A stretch of DNA of 64,000 bases from Corynebacterium sp. (GTDB taxonomy: Bacteria > Actinomycetota > Actinomycetes > Mycobacteriales > Mycobacteriaceae): positions 1-64,000 of the forward strand of contig NZ_JAUNLS010000013.1 of the NCBI RefSeq assembly GCF_030532325.1, in the 5' to 3' direction. Shown one piece after another: positions 23,655 to 35,423 of the stretch (positions are counted from its first letter, which is position 1; the number at the start of each line of letters is the position of its first letter). A program made the position numbers and the translations under genes. Below the pieces are notes generated by a model. It was not told the origin of the DNA. It saw only the letters and a program-made list of their open reading frames with translations, and did not search any database.

Positions 23655-24449
23655 TCAGAACCGAATCAGCGGTATTCTATTGCCGACGATTCCCGTGGGG
23701 CGCTCAGCGCCTTCGGCCGCGCGGTAAAGGTACACCGTCTGCCGGCCTGCTGGCGCCGAGGTTACGGTCGTGGGCCCATTGGCAAAGGTCGAGGCCGCGG
23801 CCGTACCGTACGTCGAGCCGGGCACCGAGACAAAGCCGAAGCCCATGTAGCGGTTATCCGGGTTGAGCAGCTGGTACAAGTGCCCATTGGCCCCGTTGAA
23901 GCGGCCGTTCGCCGCATTCAGTGCAGCCAGCTCACCGTGGCCCCAGCCGTCGAGTACGGTCGCGCGCATGGAGCCATAGCCGGCAGCCAGGTTGTTGCCC
24001 CAGCCGCCGCGGCCGTTGATGGTGGCGGTAGCCTCAGCGCGACAGGCGCTCGGCGCGCCCAGCTGGCAGTAGTTGTTCGCGGTACGCGCGTGCTCAAACT
24101 TCTTCGAGGCCTCCACCGCGCGCTGCACGGCGATCTTGGACAGGCCGGCGTCGTAAATAAGCGCATCCATGTACTTCTGCTTGGTGTTGAGGCCGTGGGA
24201 GGAGGCGGCCTCGCGAAGCCGCTGCCCATTCCAGAGCGGATTGATGTCCCACATCTCACCGCGCAGCTGACGGGCGGCGTCGAAGCCCACACGGCCATCG
24301 TTGAAGTCAAACGTGGCCTTCACGGCAACGGCCTGGGACAGCGGGTGATTGATCTCCACGCCGGTGACCGGGGCGGGATCCGCGCTGGCCTGCAGCGGGG
24401 CCATGGCGAGGGCCGCGGCGGTGAATACAGCAAAGAGACGAGAACGCAT
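23655..24449 (-). CDS. Secreted CAP-domain (SCP/PR-1-like) protein
   Basis: This 264-residue exported protein has a Sec signal peptide ([20 protein letters not shown], then ASA, cleavage near 23). The C-terminal half has CAP-superfamily features: [20 protein letters not shown] and [20 protein letters not shown], the block holding the family's conserved His and Tyr. Two cysteines ([13 protein letters not shown]) probably form a disulfide. The function of bacterial CAP proteins is mostly unknown. The ATG at 24449 follows ATAGGAG. It is divergent from the quinone oxidoreductase gene. Confidence 0.78.
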
Positions 24450-25588: not shown

Positions 25589-26845
25589 CTAAGCCAGGGA
25601 GGCCACCACGCGGGTGAGGTGCTCGATATCGTGGCGGGTATTAAAAGGCCCCAGCGCCACGGTCACCGCGCCGCCGATCTCCTCCACGCCCATCTCGCTG
25701 AGCAGCGGGCTACGCGGGGCCACGGTGGTCACCAGCCCGTTATCAAAGAGCCGGCGGTGCACCACCTCGGCGGGAACGCCGCGCACCGCGAAGGTCAGGC
25801 GTGGCAAGCGATCCTCCGAGGCGCCCGCGGCGGCCTCCCCCGTCACGCCAAGGATGTGCACGGCCGGTAGGGTGCCCAGCAGTGTGTAGAGATCCGCGCG
25901 CAGGTCATCCATGTAGTCATTGAGCCGCTCCAGTGAGCGCGCCAGGCGCACCCGGCGCGAGCCGCGCTCCCCGCCGGCCAGCACCGCCAGGTGATCCACC
26001 AGCGGGCCCACCCCACCGGCCAGGCCGGGCGAAACCGGAGTTTCCAGCTTTGCGGCCGTGTCCCCGGCCTTGTCGGGGCTTAGTGCATCGAGGCGGCGGA
26101 ACATCGCGGTATCGCGGAACACCAGCGCTGCGAGTTGCGGGCCGCCCAGCAGACCCAAGTCGACGCCAAGGATGTCCGCACCGAAGTCATCGAAGTCCAG
26201 GGGGCGGTAGGGCGCGAGCGCGGTGACGTCGACAAGCGCCCACGCACGGGAGCGCTCGTGAACGTGGCCGAGGATCTCCGCGGTGGGAGCCACGGTGCCC
26301 AGCAGCTCGTGCGCGGCGGAGAAGACTACGAGGCGCGTGGAGCCGTCAACAAGCTCCGCAAACTGGAAGGCAGGCAGCTCCCCGGTGCCCAGATCCGGCT
26401 GCGCCCAGCGCACGGTGGCATCGACCTCAGTGAAAGCCGAATAGAGCGCCGGCGGATCGAGCTTGGAGAGCACCACCGAGGAATTGCGGCGGATGAGCGG
26501 GCGCAGCGCGCGGGACAGTGACTGGTAGAGCACCGGCAGGGAGGGACCCAGCACCACGCACTCCGCGCGGGAGCCGACCAGATCCGCCACCGCGCGGCGG
26601 GCTTCCTCATAGGTCGCCGCGCCCTCCAACTGGCCGGGAGTTCTCTGCGCCGAGTGCGCGCCCACCATCTCTTCCTGGGCGGCCACCGCAGCGGAGGTAC
26701 GGAAGGAACGGGCCACGCCCGCGGCGACGCGCTCTGCAATCTGCGGCGCGGCGTGGGCATTGAGGTAGGTCCAGCCATCAGACAGCCCAGTGTAAAGACC
26801 CCGCACGCTGGCGACATCGTACTGATCCGGCAAGCCTAGTGGCAT
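25589..26845 (-). CDS. Aminotransferase class V / cysteine desulfurase-like protein lacking the PLP lysine
   Basis: This 418-residue protein has the fold-type I layout of the cysteine-desulfurase-like group near arabinogalactan genes (compare mycobacterial Rv3778c). Recognisable are the PLP Asp region VDVTALAPYRPLDFDDFGAD and the following strand. Where active enzymes have a Ser/Thr-x-His-Lys motif, this one reads GVDLGLLGGPQ (about 227-237), with no Lys to bind PLP. It may therefore be non-catalytic or bind PLP differently. The ATG follows AAAGGAAGG. It is convergent with the oxidoreductase and divergent from wzm. Confidence 0.72.
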   Translation of the reverse strand: MPLGLPDQYDVASVRGLYTGLSDGWTYLNAHAAPQIAERVAAGVARSFRTSAAVAAQEEMVGAHSAQRTPGQLEGAATYEEARRAVADLVGSRAECVVLGPSLPVLYQSLSRALRPLIRRNSSVVLSKLDPPALYSAFTEVDATVRWAQPDLGTGELPAFQFAELVDGSTRLVVFSAAHELLGTVAPTAEILGHVHERSRAWALVDVTALAPYRPLDFDDFGADILGVDLGLLGGPQLAALVFRDTAMFRRLDALSPDKAGDTAAKLETPVSPGLAGGVGPLVDHLAVLAGGERGSRRVRLARSLERLNDYMDDLRADLYTLLGTLPAVHILGVTGEAAAGASEDRLPRLTFAVRGVPAEVVHRRLFDNGLVTTVAPRSPLLSEMGVEEIGGAVTVALGPFNTRHDIEHLTRVVASLA

Positions 26846-26995
26846 CAGAAACCTTCCTTTAAGCCTGAATTTCGGCGGTCGACCCCTTACTCTATACGCC
26901 TTTAGGCCACGATTCCTAAACCGGCATTTTCCCTGCTAACACCCCTTTTGCTTGGCCGCGCGGCGTGTGGATAGGTGTTTGCCCAGCATGCGCGC

Positions 26996-27001
26996 TAGGG
27001 T
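26996..27001 (+). promoter_or_regulatory. Leaderless -10 box for wzm
   Basis: TAGGGT lies 7 bases before the GTG at 27009. This spacing favours the GTG over the ATG at 26988 and the frame opening at 26952. Confidence 0.55.
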
Positions 27002-27008
27002 GTTTTTC

Positions 27009-27899
27009 GTGCAAGACAACAAAGACCTGCGTGAGGACGTCGCCCGCATGATCGCCGCCCCTGAAAGCGGCAACGCCCCGGCGTCTCAATCAATGACGAT
27101 GAAGGCCGCCTTTGCCGACCTCCTGCAGGGCGCAAGGCAGCACGAGTTGTGGTTCATGCTCGGCCTCCAGGACATCAAGCAGCGCTACCGCCGCTCCGTC
27201 CTCGGCCCCTTCTGGATCACCATCGCCACCGGCGTGATGGCTGCGGCTCTGGGCCTGTTGTACTCCATGCTCTTCCAAATCCCCGTGGCCGAGTTCCTTC
27301 CCCACGTCACCGTGGGCCTCATCATGTGGAACTTCATCTCCGGGGCCATCAAGGAAGGCGCCACCGTCTTCATCGACAACGAGGGCCTCATCAAGCAGCT
27401 CCCCGCGCCGCTCTCGGTCCATGTCTACCGCCTAGTGTGGCGCCAGACGCTCTTCTTGGGCCACAACCTCATCATCTGGCTGCTGCTCATCATCATCTTC
27501 CCGCGGCACCTGGGCTGGGAGTTCTTCCTCTTCATCCCGGCGCTGGGGCTGCTGCTGGTCAACGGCGTGTGGGTGGCCATGTTCTTTGGCATCGTTGCCA
27601 CCCGCTTCCGCGACGTCGCCCCGCTGCTTGAGGCCCTGACCCAGCTGCTGTTCTACGTCACCCCGATTGTGTGGATGACCAACACTCTCAAGGATCAGGG
27701 CGGCGCCGTGGCTGAGCGCGCTCGCATCGCTGAGATCAATCCGCTTTACCACTACATGGAGATCGTCCGCGCCCCGATGATCGGTCAGCCCGTGGCCGGC
27801 TACCACTGGCTGATTGTTCTTGCCTGCACTGTCATTGGCCTGCTCATTGCCGGGCTGGCCATGCGCCAATGGCGCTTCCGTGTGAGCTACTGGGTCTAA
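27009..27899 (+). CDS. wzm: ABC-2 permease of the galactan exporter (Wzm)
   Basis: This is the membrane half of the ABC transporter that flips lipid-linked galactan across the inner membrane (Rv3783 in mycobacteria). From the GTG it is 296 residues: a cytoplasmic N terminus of about 55, then six membrane segments beginning after LQDIKQRYRRSVLGPFWITI, the ABC-2 entry motif. The GTG start is supported by the leaderless -10 at 26996-27001. The ATPase gene follows after 10 bases. Confidence 0.9.
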   Translation: MQDNKDLREDVARMIAAPESGNAPASQSMTMKAAFADLLQGARQHELWFMLGLQDIKQRYRRSVLGPFWITIATGVMAAALGLLYSMLFQIPVAEFLPHVTVGLIMWNFISGAIKEGATVFIDNEGLIKQLPAPLSVHVYRLVWRQTLFLGHNLIIWLLLIIIFPRHLGWEFFLFIPALGLLLVNGVWVAMFFGIVATRFRDVAPLLEALTQLLFYVTPIVWMTNTLKDQGGAVAERARIAEINPLYHYMEIVRAPMIGQPVAGYHWLIVLACTVIGLLIAGLAMRQWRFRVSYWV

Positions 27900-27909
27900 A
27901 AGGAGCACC

Positions 27910-28734
27910 ATGGTTTCCATCGATACTTATAACGCCTGCGTGGACTTTCCCATCTTTGATGCCAAGTCCCGCTCCCTGAAGAAGGCCATGCTCTCCACCG
28001 CCGGTGGTGCGATTGGCCAGAACGCCGACAAGACCGTGGTGGTCGAGGCCCTCAAGGATATCAACCTGCACCTGCGCGAAGGCGACCGCGTGGGCCTGGT
28101 GGGCCACAACGGCGCCGGCAAGTCCACGCTGCTGCGCTTGCTCTCCGGCATCTACGAGCCCACCCGCGGATCTGCCGACGTCCGCGGGCGCGTGGCCCCG
28201 GTCTTTGACCTGGGCGTGGGCATGGATCCGGAGGTCTCCGGCTACGACAACATCATCATCCGCGGCCTCTTCCTGGGCCAGACCATCAAGCAGATGAAGG
28301 CCAAGATGGATGAGATTGCCGAGTTCTCTGAGCTGGGCGATTACTTGGCGATGCCCCTGCGCACCTACTCCACCGGCATGCGCGTGCGCCTTGCACTGGG
28401 CGTGGTGACCTCCATTGAGCCGGAGATCCTGCTTCTCGACGAAGGCATCGGCGCCGTCGACGCCGCCTTCATGGCCAAGGCCCGCGTGCGCTTGCAGGAG
28501 CTAGTGAAGCGCTCCGGCATTCTGGTCTTTGCGTCTCACTCCAATGACTTCCTGGCGCAGCTGTGCGATACCGCGCTGTGGATCGACCACGGCACCATCC
28601 GCGCCGCCGGTGAGGTCTCCGACGTGGTGGGTCAATACGAGGGCCCCGAGGTGGGCGAGTACGTGCGTGACCTGCGCCGCCGCTTTGAGAACGAGGACGC
28701 AGTCCCCGGTGAGGACGAGGCCAGCGAGGCCTAG
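27910..28734 (+). CDS. wzt: ATPase of the galactan exporter (Wzt)
   Basis: This 274-residue ATPase powers Wzm (Rv3781 in mycobacteria). It has Walker A GHNGAGKST (about 66-74), signature YSTGM, Walker B ILLLDEGIGAVD and the switch His (FASHSND). There is no added carbohydrate-binding domain, unlike some O-antigen Wzt proteins. AAAAGGAGCACC precedes the ATG. The N terminus (VSIDTYNACVDFPIFDAKSR) is longer than in average ABC ATPases and typical of this subgroup. Confidence 0.92.
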   Translation: MVSIDTYNACVDFPIFDAKSRSLKKAMLSTAGGAIGQNADKTVVVEALKDINLHLREGDRVGLVGHNGAGKSTLLRLLSGIYEPTRGSADVRGRVAPVFDLGVGMDPEVSGYDNIIIRGLFLGQTIKQMKAKMDEIAEFSELGDYLAMPLRTYSTGMRVRLALGVVTSIEPEILLLDEGIGAVDAAFMAKARVRLQELVKRSGILVFASHSNDFLAQLCDTALWIDHGTIRAAGEVSDVVGQYEGPEVGEYVRDLRRRFENEDAVPGEDEASEA

Positions 28735-28802
28735 GTCAAGCTATTTCGTTTTGCCAGCCAAAGTTCACCTATTGTTAACCTTATGACGCTTGTTGCCATG
28801 TA

Positions 28803-28815
28803 GTGTGGCTCACAC
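28803..28815. promoter_or_regulatory. Palindrome upstream of the small secreted protein gene
   Basis: GTGTG-gct-CACAC is a perfect inverted repeat 33 bases before the start at 28848. It resembles a CRP-like half-site pair but has the wrong spacing for GlxR. Role unknown. Confidence 0.3.
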
Positions 28816-28847
28816 ATGCCCCTAATCCCCTATCAAAGGAGAACATT

Positions 28848-29255
28848 ATGACCAAGCGTCTGACCGCTGGTGTGGTCGCTGTTGCCACCGCACTGTCCCT
28901 GTCCGTGAGCCCGGCCTTCGCTGCCGACGAAGGCTCCTCCAACAACGGCGGCACGGACAGCAACTCCTCCGCCGGCGAGAACAAGCCGACCACCGACAAG
29001 GACGGCGACGGAATGTCCGACGCCCACGACGGCTCCTACGAGTCCAGCTCCGATGCCATGGATAAGAACGACGGATCGTCCGAGTCCTGGGACAAGTTCT
29101 ACGGATCGTCTTACGACAACGACGGCGAGAATGATTACCCCCGGGGCACCACCGCCGACATCCTGTGGGGCTTCGGCATCACCGCCGCCATCCTCGGCGT
29201 CGCATCCTTCGTATCCCAGAGCGGCATGATCCCGGGCTTCAAGCTCCCCTTCTAA
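28848..29255 (+). CDS. Small secreted protein, paralog 1 (acidic, DxDxDG loop)
   Basis: I do not recognise a named family. The 135 residues start with a Sec signal peptide (1-25, ending SPAFA). A Ser/Asn/Asp-rich acidic stretch (26-80) contains DKDGDGMSD (50-58), shaped like a calcium-binding loop. Then come WDKFYGSSYDND (81-92) and a C-terminal block GTTADILWGFGITAAILGVA (100-119) ending SGMIPGFKLPF. The hydrophobic block lacks the basic residues of a cytoplasmic tail, so an envelope location is plausible. AAAGGAGAACATT precedes the ATG. A terminator follows, so it is its own unit after wzt. Confidence 0.75.
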   Translation: MTKRLTAGVVAVATALSLSVSPAFAADEGSSNNGGTDSNSSAGENKPTTDKDGDGMSDAHDGSYESSSDAMDKNDGSSESWDKFYGSSYDNDGENDYPRGTTADILWGFGITAAILGVASFVSQSGMIPGFKLPF

Positions 29256-29633
29256 GCTGGTTCCATTTTCAACCGATCGGAACAAAGCCCCTAAACCCTA
29301 TCCAACCCCAGCTCCAGCCTCCAGCGGCTGGAGCTTCTTATGTTTTCTCGGCCTAAATCGAACTTTCCCGTTTTCAGTAAGCGTTCATTAAGGAACCCTT
29401 CCGCAAACCAAGAAGATCCATGTTGCGCAGTCCCAAATAGCGGCGTACTTTCCGGAGTTTCTGCCCCCTGCTTGCAATGGCCCCACACCGACCATGTCCA
29501 GCAATTTCGCCTAGGCCATTCCCCCATATGGGTGCACGGTCAGACATATTTTGACGAAAGCTCTTTACTTCACAAGTGAAACGGTATTAAATACGTTCGC
29601 ACCTTTTCTTTACCTCTCTCTAAGGCGCCTCTC
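29256..29633. other. 378-base intergenic region between the two small secreted proteins
   Basis: The first 80 bases hold the terminator of paralog 1. The rest is more AT-rich than the surroundings and encodes nothing convincing. It holds promoter-like elements for paralog 2: TTGACG (29551-29556), a small palindrome TTCAC-aa-GTGAA (29569-29580) and TATTAAAT (29585-29592). Short open frames here on both strands have no ribosome site and no recognisable protein features. Confidence 0.55.
29310..29343 (+). terminator. Rho-independent terminator after small secreted paralog 1
   Basis: AGCTCCAGCC (29310-29319) and GGCTGGAGCT (29326-29335) form a perfect 10-bp stem with a 6-base loop, followed by a T-rich tail. 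Confidence 0.85.
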
Positions 29634-29996
29634 ATGAAGCGTCTCACCGCTGGCGTCGTTGCTGTCGCAGCTGCGCTCTCCCTGTCCACCGCAACCGCGT
29701 CCGCTGCCACCTGGGAGGATGCGTTCGTAGACGCTATCAACAAGAGCGTCTTCTCCGATCCTCACTACGGCTCCTACAAGGGAAGCTCTGAAGTCCACGA
29801 ACAGAACCCGGGTTCGTCCGAGGCGTTTAAGAACTTCTACGGCTCTTCCTACAAGAACGACTTCAAGGAGGGCTACCAGTTCGGCACCACCGCTGACATC
29901 CTGTGGGGCGTCGGCATCGCCGCTGCCGTCCTGGGCACCGCTGCTTTCGCAGTGCAGAACGGCATGATCCCGGGCGTTTCCCTCCCGCAGCTCTAA
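29634..29996 (+). CDS. Small secreted protein, paralog 2
   Basis: This 120-residue protein is clearly homologous to the one at 28848-29255. It has an almost identical signal peptide (KRLTAGVVAVAAALSLS, cleaved near 24), GSSEAFKNFYGSSYKND (60-76) and GTTADILWGVGIAAAVLG (84-101) ending NGMIPGVSLPQL. It lacks the acidic calcium-loop segment and instead has TWEDAFVDAINKSVF (26-40), a possible amphipathic helix. There are no cysteines. A weak AAGG precedes the ATG. It has its own terminator. Function unknown; an envelope role is inferred from export and position. Confidence 0.75.
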   Translation: MKRLTAGVVAVAAALSLSTATASAATWEDAFVDAINKSVFSDPHYGSYKGSSEVHEQNPGSSEAFKNFYGSSYKNDFKEGYQFGTTADILWGVGIAAAVLGTAAFAVQNGMIPGVSLPQL

Positions 29997-30020
29997 GCTG
30001 ACACGGCTTTAAACACAACG

Positions 30021-30056
30021 GCTCCGACCCGCATGGGTTGGGGCTCTTGTTGTTTT
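30021..30056 (+). terminator. Rho-independent terminator after small secreted paralog 2
   Basis: GCTCCGACCC (30021-30030) pairs with GGGTTGGGGC (30035-30044), with some G-T pairs, around loop GCAT. TCTTGTTGTTTTT follows. Confidence 0.85.
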
Positions 30057-30074
30057 TAGCCCTTCCATCACAAA

Positions 30075-30169
30075 AAGCTGAACCTGGATGGATGAACCTG
30101 CAGGTGGGGAGAAGGGCGTCGGCAAGCAGGGCAGTGCGCGACCGTGAGGTTCAGCTTTCCAGGTTCAGA
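30075..30169. repeat. Repeated GAACCT elements forming a long-loop hairpin
   Basis: AAAGCTGAACCT (30075-30086) and AGGTTCAGCTTT (30148-30159) are perfect inverted repeats 61 bases apart. Two more copies (TGAACCTG near 30094 and CCAGGTTCAG at 30160-30169) lie alongside. For leftward transcripts the stem ends in a T5 run, so it may terminate the acetyltransferase message. Confidence 0.5.
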
Positions 30170-30205
30170 CTTTTGGCGGGCTGAGGGGAAGAGCTGAGAA
30201 AGGAG

Positions 30206-30850
30206 CTACTGCACGCCGAGCATCGTGCGCAGCTCAAAGGTCAGCCCCGTGGCCACCACGCGGGCGCCGGGCTGGTAGGAGTCGCGGTCGAGTCGTGCGG
30301 TCTTCGTCGGCATCGGTTGCTTCTGCGGTCCGGAGGGCTCGGTGCTTTCCCCGGTGACTGTGTAGCCCACCTTCGCCGAGACGCGCTCGGAAGCCGCATT
30401 GCCTTCCACCCAGCTGGTGTGCAGGCTGGTGGCCTCCAGGTAGCGGAAGGCAAAGCCCGCCACAGCGTGGCGCACCAGCGTGCCCAGGCCCTTGCCCTGC
30501 TCGCGGTGGTAGAGCCAGGAGCCGGTCTCAATCGCGCGGGCGTTCTTGAAGTCCTCGGCCCGCATGTCCACCACACCGATGATCTGGTTGCGGTAGAACA
30601 CGCCCAAGTCCAGGGACCACTTTTCCGGGCCAAATTCGGCACGGTGGGCCCAGCGGAAGGCGGGGCTTGGCGCCGCAAAGAGCCAGGGAAAGGCGTACAC
30701 CGGCACGTCCGGGCCGTAGATCTCCTCCGGAGTCACGCCGTGGATCGCGCAGATGTCCTCATCGCGCAGAACGCGCAGGGTGATCTCATGCTCATCGTCG
30801 CGGGCGGTGATGCTCAGGCCAAAGGGCGGCCACATTTTCTGCAAATCCAT
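30206..30850 (-). CDS. GNAT-family acetyltransferase (RimJ/RimL-like)
   Basis: This 214-residue protein has a GNAT core: LRVLRDEDICAIHGV at the start of the fold, LGVFYRNQIIGVVDMR, and the acetyl-CoA loop REQGKGLGTLVRHAV (about 121-135), then SWVEGNAASERVSAKVGY, the RimJ/RimL end motif. A C-terminal extension of about 45 residues is present. The substrate is unknown; N-terminal or small-molecule acetylation are both possible. The ATG is 6 bases after TAGACT (30857-30862, minus strand), probably leaderless. It is divergent from glfT1, 44 bases away. Confidence 0.8.
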   Translation of the reverse strand: MDLQKMWPPFGLSITARDDEHEITLRVLRDEDICAIHGVTPEEIYGPDVPVYAFPWLFAAPSPAFRWAHRAEFGPEKWSLDLGVFYRNQIIGVVDMRAEDFKNARAIETGSWLYHREQGKGLGTLVRHAVAGFAFRYLEATSLHTSWVEGNAASERVSAKVGYTVTGESTEPSGPQKQPMPTKTARLDRDSYQPGARVVATGLTFELRTMLGVQ

Positions 30851-30856
30851 GTCACA

Positions 30857-30862
30857 AGTCTA
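30857..30862 (-). promoter_or_regulatory. Leaderless -10 box for the GNAT gene
   Basis: TAGACT on the minus strand, 6 bases before the ATG at 30850. On the other strand CAGAAT, a weaker match, lies 7 bases before the glfT1 ATG. Confidence 0.5.
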
Positions 30863-30894
30863 GGGGCTCACGCCCGGGTGGCAGAATAGAGCGC

Positions 30895-31800
30895 ATGACT
30901 GCCACCTTGAGCACCGCCGGGTCCACGGCTGCCGTTATTGTTACTCACCGTCGCGTTGATCTCCTTCGGGCGTCGTTGGAGCAGGTAGTGAACCAAACCC
31001 ACCCCGTGCAGTGGGTCATCGTGGTGGACAACGGCGCGGAGTCCGCCGTCCAGGACCTCGTGGAGGAACTCGCCGGCCAGCGCGCCGTGTACGTACCTTC
31101 CAAAACCAACTTGGGCGGCGCCGGCGGCTTCGCGCTCGGCTTCCTCACCGCCCTGGCGCTGGGTGCCGACGCCGTCTGGTGCGCCGACGACGACGGCCGC
31201 CCCGCCGATCACGGAGTGCTCGAGGAGCTCTACCGGGTGGCAGAAAAGCACGGGCTGCACGAGGTCTCCCCGGCGGTGTGCAACATCGACGAGCCAGGCA
31301 AGCTGGCCTTTCCCCTGCGCCAAGGCCTGGTGTGGCGCCGCTACATGCGCGAGCTCGAGGGGGATTTCCTGCCCGGCATCGCCTCCCTCTTTAACGGGGC
31401 GCTCATCTCCGCCGAGGCCATGGAGGTCATCGGCGTGCCGGATTACCGCCTGTTCATCCGGGGCGACGAAGTGGAGTACCACCGCCGCCTGGCCAATTCG
31501 GGCTTGAGCTTCGGCACCGCGCTAACCACCAGCTACCTCCACCCGGACGGCTCCGACGAGTTCAAGCCCATCCTCGGCGGCAGGATGCACACCCAGTACC
31601 CCGAGGGCGAGTTCAAGCGCTTCTTTACCTACCGCAACCGCGGCTACCTGCTCTGGCAGCGCGGCATGCGCAAGCTGCTGCCCCAGGAGTTCGCGCGCTT
31701 CGGCTGGTTCTTCCTGGTCCAGCGCCATGACCCGAAGGGATTCCTCGAGTGGCTGCGCCTGCACAACAGGGGCCGCAAGGAGGACTTCCGCAGGAGTTAG
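30895..31800 (+). CDS. glfT1: Galactofuranosyltransferase GlfT1
   Basis: GlfT1 adds the first galactofuranose residues to decaprenyl-diphosphoryl-GlcNAc-rhamnose (Rv3782 in mycobacteria). The 301-residue GT-A enzyme has VIVTHRRVDLLRASLEQVV, the strand-loop VVDNGAES, TNLGGAGGFALGF, and the metal-binding ADDDGRP (about 99-105), then an acidic FIRGDEVEYHRR resembling the catalytic-base motif. It acts at the cytoplasmic face. Its 3' end overlaps the convergent GtrA gene by 4 bases. Confidence 0.9.
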   Translation: MTATLSTAGSTAAVIVTHRRVDLLRASLEQVVNQTHPVQWVIVVDNGAESAVQDLVEELAGQRAVYVPSKTNLGGAGGFALGFLTALALGADAVWCADDDGRPADHGVLEELYRVAEKHGLHEVSPAVCNIDEPGKLAFPLRQGLVWRRYMRELEGDFLPGIASLFNGALISAEAMEVIGVPDYRLFIRGDEVEYHRRLANSGLSFGTALTTSYLHPDGSDEFKPILGGRMHTQYPEGEFKRFFTYRNRGYLLWQRGMRKLLPQEFARFGWFFLVQRHDPKGFLEWLRLHNRGRKEDFRRS

Positions 31801-32228
31801 GGCACCTCGAAGGACTTGCGTGTCTGGCGGAAGATGAACCAGCGCTGCACGAAGAAGTTGATGACGGTGGCCGTGCCCTGCGCCAGCGCAAAGGCCGCGA
31901 CCAGCGCCCACGAGGACGGCCAGTCCAGCGAGTGATCAAAGAAGGGAAACGCGCGCCGGTAGATGGCGATGTTGATGACGTAGGTCAGCGTGTACGTCAA
32001 GATCACAGCGCCGAGCCTGCGCAGCGAGGCCTTGGCCTTAAACGTCCAGCGTCGGTTGAGCAGGTAGGCGGTCAGCGTGCCGCAGATGAAGCCGCCGGTG
32101 CGGGAGGAGACGTCGCCAAGCACGCCCAGGCCAATCTGTAGGACCCAGGTCACGGAGGCGTCGATGACGGCGGAGATCGCTCCCGTGAGGGCGAACTTGG
32201 CGCCCTGCACGCGCAGCGACTGCGTCAT
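31797..32228 (-). CDS. GtrA-family membrane protein (copy A)
   Basis: This 143-residue protein has four membrane segments in the GtrA pattern: FALTGAISAVIDASVTWVL, a middle pair, and VNFFVQRWFIFR at the end. GtrA proteins are linked to transport of lipid-linked sugars; the mycobacterial one beside dprE1 (Rv3789) is associated with arabinan assembly. Copy A starts 3 bases after copy B ends, so the two are coupled. Its end overlaps glfT1 on the other strand. Confidence 0.85.
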   Translation of the reverse strand: MTQSLRVQGAKFALTGAISAVIDASVTWVLQIGLGVLGDVSSRTGGFICGTLTAYLLNRRWTFKAKASLRRLGAVILTYTLTYVINIAIYRRAFPFFDHSLDWPSSWALVAAFALAQGTATVINFFVQRWFIFRQTRKSFEVP

Positions 32229-32231
32229 GGG

Positions 32232-32666
32232 TTACTTGCCCTTAAAGATGAAGACGCGCTGGATGGCAAAGTTGGTCACGGTGGCCACGCCCTGGGCGAT
32301 GACAAAGGCGATGGTGTCCTTCACCGCGCCCTCAAAACCGAGGGAGATCAGCGGCGCGTTGAGCACCCAGTAGAGGAAGTTCTGCACCGCGAAGGTGGAG
32401 ATGTACAGCGCGGCCACGGCACCGGCGGTACGGCCGGAGACCTTGGAGCCGAAGGTCCAGCGCGCGTTGGCAATGTAGGCGGCGATGGTGCCAAAGACCC
32501 AGCCAATCGCCTTCGCCGCCGAGCGGTGCAGGCCAAGGTAGGTCAGCAGCAGGGTCAGGCCGTAATCGATGGCCGCCGTGAACACACCCACCGAGACAAA
32601 CCGAACGAGCTGCGTCTTGAGCGACGCCTCTGAGGAGCGGTGGACCTCTACGGAATTATCAGTCAC
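32232..32666 (-). CDS. GtrA-family membrane protein (copy B)
   Basis: This 144-residue GtrA protein is counted from the GTG at 32666 (VTDNSVEVHRSSEASLKTQL). The frame is open further upstream, but that part reads as Arg/Pro-rich overlap with the preceding gene and is unlikely to be translated. Four membrane helices begin at VRFVSVGVFTAAIDYGLTLL and end VTNFAIQRVFIFKGK. It is similar in plan to copy A but the sequences differ widely, so the duplication is not recent. Confidence 0.85.
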   Translation of the reverse strand: MTDNSVEVHRSSEASLKTQLVRFVSVGVFTAAIDYGLTLLLTYLGLHRSAAKAIGWVFGTIAAYIANARWTFGSKVSGRTAGAVAALYISTFAVQNFLYWVLNAPLISLGFEGAVKDTIAFVIAQGVATVTNFAIQRVFIFKGK

Positions 32667-33871: not shown

Positions 33872-34007
33872 ACGCGCACGTTCTCACACATTCGGGCAGG
33901 ACGAACGTCCGTTTTGTACCGAATATCACTAGTGTCGTCTCCGTCACCGGAGGGCCCGGGTGGGTAGGCTTGGACAACGATACAGTTCGTCGAGCAAAGA
34001 GTAAGTG

Positions 34008-35423
34008 ATGGAACTACATACCACCGAAAAGTCCCTGCACGGTTGGGGACGTACCGCACCGTCGACCGCCCATGTCCTTGTCACCGAGGACGTCGAAGTC
34101 ATCAAGAAGGCCGTCGCGCAGGTCGCTGACGACAACTCCGACAAGCCCGATCACCTGCGCCGCGGCGTCATCGCCCGCGGCATGGGCCGCTCCTACGGCG
34201 ACCCCGCCCAAAACGGCGGCGGCCTCGTCATCGACATGCAGGCCCTCAACAAGATCCATTCCATCGATCCGGAATCCGGCATTGTCGACGTCGACGGCGG
34301 CGTCACCCTAGACCAGCTCATGAAGGCCGCCCTGCCCTACGGCCTGTGGGTCCCCGTCCTGCCCGGCACCCGCCAGGTCACCATCGGCGGCGCCATCGGC
34401 CCGGACATCCACGGCAAGAACCACCACTCCGCGGGTTCCTTTGGCAACCACGTGGTCTCCATGGAGCTGCTCGTGGCCGACGGCCGCGTGCTCCACCTCA
34501 CCCCGGAGGGCTCCGCGGATGACCCGGAGGGCACCCTCTTCTGGGCCACCGTCGGCGGCATGGGCCTGACCGGCATCATCCTGCGCGCGCAGATCAAGAT
34601 GACCAAGACGGAGACCGCCTACTTCATCGCAGATACTGACCGCACGAGCAACCTGGATGAGACCATCGCCTTCCACTCGGATGGCTCGGAGCACAACTAC
34701 ACCTATTCCTCCGCGTGGTTCGACGTGATCTCCCCGGAGCCGAAGCTGGGCCGCTCCACCATCTCCCGCGGCAGCCTGGCCACCCTGGCGCAGCTCGAGG
34801 AGCTCGCCCCGAAGCTGGCCAAGGATCCGCTGAAGTTCAACGCCCCGCAGCTGATGACGGTGCCGGATATCTTCCCCAACTTCACCATGAACAAGCTCAC
34901 CCTCATGGCCATCGGCGAGGCCTACTACATGATGGGCGCCCCGGCGCGTAACCAGATCAAGAACCTCACGCAGTTCTACCAGCCGCTGGATCTCATCGGC
35001 GAGTGGAACCGCGGCTACGGCTCCAAGGGCTTCCTGCAGTACCAGTTCGTCGTGCCGATGGACGCCGTGGAGCCCTTCAAGGACATCATCCGCGACATGC
35101 AGCGCTCCGGCCACTACTCCGCGCTCAACGTCTTCAAGCTCTTCGGCCCGGGCAACAAGGCCCCGCTGTCTTACCCAATGCCGGGCTGGAACGTCTGCGT
35201 GGACTTCCCCATCAAGCCGGGCTTGGATTCCTTCCTCGACGATCTGGACAAGCGCGTCATGGAGTTCGGCGGCCGCCTCTACCTGGCCAAGGAGTCCCGC
35301 ACCAGCGCCGAGAACTTCCACAAGATGTACCCGGGCATGGAGGGCTGGCTCAAGACCCGCAACGAAATCGACCCCACCGGCGTCTTCGCCTCCGATATGT
35401 CCCGCCGCCTCGAGCTGCACTAA
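34008..35423 (+). CDS. dprE1: Decaprenylphosphoryl-ribose 2'-oxidase DprE1
   Basis: DprE1 oxidises decaprenylphosphoryl-ribose to the 2'-keto form, the first step to arabinan donor. The 471-residue flavoprotein has the VAO-type FAD domain with [16 protein letters not shown] and [20 protein letters not shown], and the substrate domain. The Cys that benzothiazinones attack in mycobacteria (Cys387) is present as Cys397 in [10 protein letters not shown]. The GTG at 34005 directly precedes the ATG used here. No clear ribosome site is seen, but TAGGCT at 33965-33970 could be the -10. Confidence 0.96.

Follow-up and report, generated by a model that had tools for sequence, protein, structure and literature searches.

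Two genes, designated A and B, lie on the forward strand between wzt and glfT1 in the window, as the whole 64,000-nucleotide stretch of DNA analysed here is called. The gene order was found to be wzm, wzt, A, B, a GNAT-type gene on the minus strand, and glfT1. The products of the flanking genes, the galactan exporter Wzm and Wzt upstream and GlfT1 downstream, all scored above the NCBIfam cut-offs, and DprE1 is encoded at 34005-35423 (NF053785, 756 bits), within the arabinogalactan gene neighbourhood. Gene A (28848..29255, including the stop) encodes a putative secreted protein of 135 residues, and gene B (29634..29996, including the stop) encodes one of 120 residues. An AAAGGAG sequence sits directly 5′ of the ATG at 28848, which makes the GTG at 28803, the mechanical ORF start of A, unlikely. 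Terminator-like hairpins were identified on the forward strand 3′ of A (29310..29335) and 3′ of B (30020..30045) by a hairpin search against shuffled sequences; across both strands of the A/B region, five such sites were found, compared with 1.6 ± 1.4 in shuffles. A search for sigma-70-like promoters of A or B returned none (0.4 in shuffles). An earlier note on this DNA had described two paralogs that follow wzt, each with its own terminator, and that share a signal peptide, the FYGSSY and GTTADILWG motifs and a hydrophobic C-terminal segment, and this description held for the reading frames, for the hairpins and for the identity of Wzt.

Both genes were identified as ORFs, gene A with homologues in other Corynebacterium genomes and a dN/dS below 1, and gene B with 59% identity to A (query residues 2-118, E 1.1e-27). 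A and B are the sole strong matches to each other in their own 2.49-Mb assembly. Their differences at the three codon positions (36/25/51) and their dN/dS of 0.54 are as expected of real genes. In nine further family pairs, ten pairs in total, dN/dS ranged from 0.08 to 0.86; the proteins of the family are thus under constraint, loosely so in some pairs.

The N-terminus of each protein shows by inspection the features of a Sec-type signal peptide, with a KR n-region, a hydrophobic core and an AxA site, and these features are conserved in the 32 aligned rows. In A, the predicted signal peptide comprises residues 1-25 (28848..28922; cleavage at AFA|AD), with a model helix at residues 6-18 and with A23 and A25 invariant in the 32-row alignment; in B, it comprises residues 1-24 (29634..29705), with A22 and A24 invariant in a 29-row alignment. 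It is followed by a variable linker (A, residues 26-83, 28923..29096; B, residues 25-67, 29706..29834), which in A is rich in serine and glycine (fraction 0.35 over residues 26-85) and acidic (15 acidic and 4 basic residues over the same span). A conserved segment then precedes the hydrophobic one, reading FYGSSYDND...GTTAD in A (residues 84-104, 29097..29159) and FYGSSYKND...GTTAD in B (residues 68-88, 29835..29897). The hydrophobic segment itself spans residues 105-123 of A (29160..29216) and residues 89-107 of B (29898..29954), with Kyte-Doolittle means over 19 residues of 1.90 and 2.11, respectively. The tail of A, QSGMIPGFKLPF (29217..29252), ends in Phe, whereas that of B, QNGMIPGVSLPQL (29955..29993), does not. 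GMIPG, which had been taken for the C-terminal end, lies inside the proteins, and FKLPF (A) or VSLPQL (B) comes after it.

AlphaFold2 models, built from alignments of A or B with relatives from named records, both depicted the linker as disordered and the C-terminal part as two helices, at modest overall confidence (mean pLDDT 66 for A and 65 for B). Helices were predicted at residues 58-71, 77-94 and 101-124 of A, and at residues 32-39, 51-54, 59-79 and 85-108 of B, the last in each case covering the hydrophobic segment. The linkers were modelled with low confidence: pLDDT fell below 50, an indirect sign of disorder, at residues 21-37, 39-46 and 48-52 of A, and at residues 24-28, 30-34 and 40-51 of B. 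In the 32-row alignment, mean pairwise identity was 0.59 for the signal peptide, 0.20 for the linker (residues 26-84), and 0.46-0.49 for three C-terminal regions.

Relatives in Corynebacterium and their genomic settings

With B as a single query, relatives were found in 15 of 101 genomes, its own included, all of one genus. The C-terminal 58 residues were made into a profile, with members from some of the genomes that were later searched among its sources, and it matched 30 of 242 Corynebacterium genomes at E<1e-10 and 45 at E≤0.001, leaving 197 without a match at the latter threshold. The full-length profile matched 76 of the 242, a number inflated by signal-peptide matches. Over the order (397 genomes, at least ten of them Corynebacterium), the C-terminal profile was strong only in the genome of the window and one congener, and its five matches outside the genus were weak (E 0.005-0.009) and covered pieces of frames of 381-683 residues. 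The full-length profile gave matches in 19 of the 397 genomes, those outside the genus being mostly signal-peptide stretches. Two longer ones, in G619 (E 1.6e-7) and G584 (E 5.0e-7), were not among the C-terminal-profile matches. Both are taken as likely chance similarities. In G619, the Ser-rich frame (L051) does not begin with a signal peptide and continues beyond the match; an ORF check at the G584 match (L052) gave no ORF there. The family is unnamed, and across the 242 and 397 genomes searched its convincing members appear to be confined to part of the genus Corynebacterium. The suggestion that presence might follow mycolic acids thus does not hold in any simple form, since strong matches occur in a minority of Corynebacterium and none is convincing elsewhere in the order. 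Named records with members include C. aurimucosum, C. phocae, C. riegelii, C. phoceense, C. meitnerae and C. tuscaniense, among others (13 loci).

A total of 81 family frames was collected from 38 stretches in 32 genomes, namely the window and 37 stretches of 31 other genomes (34 of 20 kb and 3 of 15.0-16.3 kb); at least 13 weaker matches were left out. The 81 rows include Cys-bearing sister frames (see below), a few divergent frames, truncated frames and one broken copy, and they are not independent, several being near-copies between related species. The starts were trimmed too deeply in some rows (for example G048, G054, G225 and G265), which leaves the C-termini unaffected. The proteins are roughly 110-190 residues long, and their genes are often in tandem, in runs of up to six.

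The surroundings were read in the 32 genomes. The main place of the family is the wzt-glfT1 interval in 8 genomes, including the window, a position beside wzm in 1, an azlCD-trp locus in 19, and other sites in 4 (the trp side without azlCD in one, between ssb-like and dnaB-like genes in one, and elsewhere in two). The 19 azlCD-trp genomes count G101, with yqgE and trpA and no azlCD match, as well as G049 and G021, with yqgE and azlCD in stretches that stop before trp. The gene names at these loci (yqgE, azlC, azlD, trpA, rieske, HNH, GH15, rpsF, ssb and dnaB) are our presumed assignments. A further member was found at a second site in G054, G271 and G196. The placement of the GNAT gene varies in the wzt group: in G056, G052 and G011 it separates wzt from the family, and in the window it follows the family.

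In a tree of 73 of the 81 rows (rows shorter than 100 residues were dropped), the locus groups cluster, with 11 changes compared with a shuffled mean of 29.6, although in the best tree, where 21 of 70 inner branches are left open, none of the groups forms one clade. The 17 tree rows from the wzt-glfT1 interval or beside wzm also cluster (4 changes, compared with 15.4 in shuffles), and all fall to the same side of a fork with weak support (43/67); no well-supported branch rules against a single origin of the wzt group. A family copy in G011 carries an internal stop (L034:9901-10203), and a short remnant is present in G265 (L138:4327-4521), both beside longer copies. In G059, two adjacent ORFs between family copies (L036:6577-8980) resemble by eye an IS21-type transposase and its helper, and an inserted element may shape the array. 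We read the overall pattern, from sequence, as one of probable birth and death of tandem genes, for which the galactan locus would be one among several homes.

Resemblance to known proteins and the C-terminal tail

The view that A and B belong to no known family was borne out, in that searches of Pfam, NCBIfam, PHROGs and PDB sequences returned none that fits them. For 32 members, all matches in Pfam and NCBIfam were weak, with best E-values of 0.0057 and of 0.00079 (CigR, in 3 members), respectively, and no Pfam or NCBIfam cut-off was reached by the first member, for which cut-offs were compared. No credible match to family members, or to the Cys-bearing sister set, was found among PDB sequences. 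In PHROGs, A matches phrog_11880, of unknown function, over residues 1-102, a span that excludes the hydrophobic C-terminus (E 8.5e-4), and the best E-value for B was 0.029. Searches by tblastn of A against phage records and of B against plasmid records gave no match, and Rfam returned none over positions 26000-32500 of the window. No description of a family of the A/B type was found in the literature searched, a search that mostly excluded subscription papers.

Among the closest sequences is the Cys-bearing sister set, A2 (7 rows, from L040, L042 and L043), which matches the family with a profile-profile probability of 98.5 and an E-value of 3.6e-15, signal peptide included. These proteins share with the family a signal peptide, SS motifs, a hydrophobic C-terminus and an IPGxSLP-like tail, but they differ from it in having two conserved Cys residues and GVPLALVALLG in place of GTTxDILxGTG. 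Their genes occur in runs of up to three (L040:8486-10020, L042:8430-9992 and L043:14195-14701), and no family was named for them.

The closest likeness in layout was to PS2 (CspB), the S-layer protein of C. glutamicum. According to one report, every PS2 homologue has a signal peptide, a region of disorder and a mycomembrane-binding hydrophobic segment of approximately 25 residues at the C-terminus (PMC12021427). A signal peptide, a predicted disordered linker and a C-terminal hydrophobic segment of similar length are present in A and B too. The same report describes the last Phe of PS2 homologues as invariant and as typically preceded by Pro or Lys, with the meaning of this Phe left open by its describers (PMC12021427, 2025). 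A final Phe after Pro also occurs in A and many of its relatives, and after Lys in a few relatives. A PS2-like anchor with a C-terminal F, P or K is also ascribed there to several further C. glutamicum proteins that are putatively on the surface, including a metallophosphoesterase, while terminal Phe is listed as absent in MytA, B, C, D and F, PorA and PorB (PMC12021427). PS2 without its 27 C-terminal residues is reported to go free into the medium (PMC12337289). PS2 is reported as patchy in distribution and restricted to Corynebacterium, and the A/B family appears to be likewise. However, 120-135 residues are too few to accommodate the helical core, arm and coiled-coil stalk of PS2, and A and B also differ from PS2 in occurring as tandem copies and, for B, in ending in QL. 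No homology to PS2 was detected: among PDB sequences, the PS2 chain appeared only at E 0.38, through the signal-peptide end, and it was absent with the C-terminal profile. A has the sequence features of a candidate PS2-type anchor, and B is without the terminal Phe. A and B lie outside the PS2 protein family, and the proposal made here is therefore that they may work like PS2, not that they are PS2 proteins.

The terminal Phe was examined across the family. Among the 81 C-termini, 50 end in Phe, 32 in PF, and 31 in LPF, the last including A; the 31 rows that lack a terminal Phe are B, which ends in PQL, and 30 others. In the same stretches, terminal Phe was found in 30 of 675 non-family ORFs of at least 250 residues, and in 8 of 99 non-family ORFs of at least 200 residues with a hydrophobic C-terminus; these background ORFs are mechanical, and five of the latter eight look like one gene (azlD) in different genomes. 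At the DNA level, 19 of 121 genomes together held 20 matches to the pattern xPGxxLPF-stop, where x is hydrophobic, compared with 9 for the reversed control, which was counted by pattern only, a hydrophobic stretch not being a criterion. Seven of the 20 are family members at known places, one is a short frame beside the family, and 12 are others, of which five have a preceding hydrophobic stretch (L157, L160, L165, L170 and L172) and seven do not. Since the non-family matches hardly outnumber the control, the shared tail is a lead and no proof. Four of these frames, L165:1501-2991 (496 residues), L170:1501-2403 (300), L157:1501-2136 (211) and L160:1260-1526 (88), with lengths as found within the stretches examined, combine a hydrophobic stretch with PGxxLPF; those of L157 and L172 are alike, and that of L165 resembles a YVTN-type propeller by eye.

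Candidate location and competing explanations

Taken together, the sequence features, the models and the analogy with PS2 point to A and B as probable, though far from certain, minimal PS2-style tail-anchored surface proteins of the mycomembrane that would form an acidic, flexible coat. Their predicted location in the outer mycomembrane is plausible because their layout matches the published PS2 anchor. The Sec-type signal peptides would direct export and be cleaved, and the C-terminal helix of approximately 24 residues, together with its short, charge-poor tail, would insert into the mycomembrane as in PS2. In keeping with such an anchor, the best C-terminal hydrophobic 19-mer has a Kyte-Doolittle mean of at least 1.6 in 71 of 73 members. 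The acidic, Ser/Gly-rich, flexible segment would then be exposed as a coat on a single face, which is most likely the outer one. The tandem copies and the fast-changing linker suggest that the proteins form a diversifying, exposed surface layer and are neither enzymes nor components of galactan export. O-mycoloylation is reported to affect chiefly Ser that has Ser and small residues around it and lies in a flexible stretch, with no strict motif (PMC11066868). By their Ser/Gly-rich context, the SS-rich linkers of A and B are plausible substrates, and the serines of the SS motifs might be so modified, although we consider this somewhat less probable than the reverse.

The four other explanations that were weighed concern the membrane, the mode of action, the genomic setting and the possible identity of the family. 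A signal peptide and a single hydrophobic helix would equally fit type I proteins of the plasma membrane, in which the C-terminal segment would act as a standard stop-transfer helix, with the linker in the periplasm. Linker and charge counts were made for 73 of the 81 rows (rows shorter than 105 residues were dropped). The tail, however, has a mean net charge of only +0.27, and the usual positive flank of a stop-transfer segment is missing, since only 3 of the 73 tails reach +2 or more; this feature and the frequent LPF end make a plasma-membrane location rather unlikely. Oligomeric helical channels in the mycomembrane, working as PorA/PorH do, would be in keeping with the tandem copies, with the two C-terminal helices of the models, and with the small-xxx-small-xxx-small pattern in 52 of the 73 hydrophobic segments, a count made without a control. 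On the other hand, the helix ahead of the hydrophobic one is not amphipathic beyond shuffled sequences (fraction as high, 0.24 for A and 0.35 for B), 70 of the 73 hydrophobic segments contain no charged residue or His, and sequences of solved structures gave no credible match, so that a channel appears distinctly improbable. PorA, PorH and ProtX are shorter than A and B and have no signal peptide; very short length and absence of a signal peptide are not traits of A and B, at 135 and 120 residues with a signal peptide present. In the PDB sequence searches, which cover solved proteins only, PorA, PorH and ProtX gave no match. The likeness lies in their being small helical envelope proteins of Corynebacterium with possible O-mycoloylation (PMC12632848).

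The earlier note had argued from the placement of A and B beside the galactan exporter, and an accessory role in galactan export or arabinogalactan assembly would agree with the wzt-glfT1 position in eight genomes, with the position beside wzm in a ninth, and with the clustering of the wzt-group rows on one side of their weakly supported fork. Such a link is not borne out by the wider survey: the family resides at azlCD-trp in 19 of the 32 genomes and at other sites in four, and most Corynebacterium genomes gave no match at all at E≤0.001, which leaves such a role very improbable. The suggestion that these are secreted bacteriocin-like peptides comes from weak matches to NF053514 (BLB8/JUQZ-1) in 3 of 32 members, with a best E-value of 0.017. 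The 40-bit cut-off of this model was reached in none of 61 genomes, the family and sister matches (G024 C40, G002 C43 and G015) are limited to the first 32-44 positions of the model, and the same search also gave matches in 11 of 14 control genomes. Identity with NF053514 was rejected on these grounds, with matches that are below the cut-off, limited to the N-terminal part of the model and found in controls too, and a bacteriocin-like nature is scarcely credible.

If A and B are indeed PS2-style surface proteins, they would represent a new, fast-diverging surface component for part of the genus Corynebacterium. The family bears on how proteins reach the mycomembrane and stay there, in an order from which homologues of BAM are stated to be absent (PMC12632848). 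The family consists of a signal peptide, a linker and a putative anchor, with little else. A bolder and rather doubtful proposal is that the IPGxxLPF-COOH tail, following a hydrophobic helix, serves as a sorting signal in a pathway that is general in Corynebacterium and would carry Sec-exported proteins on to the mycomembrane. Such a signal would be common to PS2, several larger surface proteins and the present family, with A and B as natural minimal cargo and B as a variant without the final Phe. The natural variants with or without this residue provide a ready-made test set for the meaning of the last Phe.

Two further proteins of the same assembly were noted in passing. A 5′-nucleotidase-like protein (L175:1-1629) has a Ser/Asp-rich linker and a C-terminal hydrophobic segment, with Ile as its last residue; its best NCBIfam score is far below the cut-off, and with the C-terminal profile it gives no better than E 0.24. 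A secreted CAP-like protein encoded on the minus strand of the window at 23655-24449 (PF00188, 20.5 bits, cut-off 21.1), with no hydrophobic C-terminus by eye, ends in IPLIRF.
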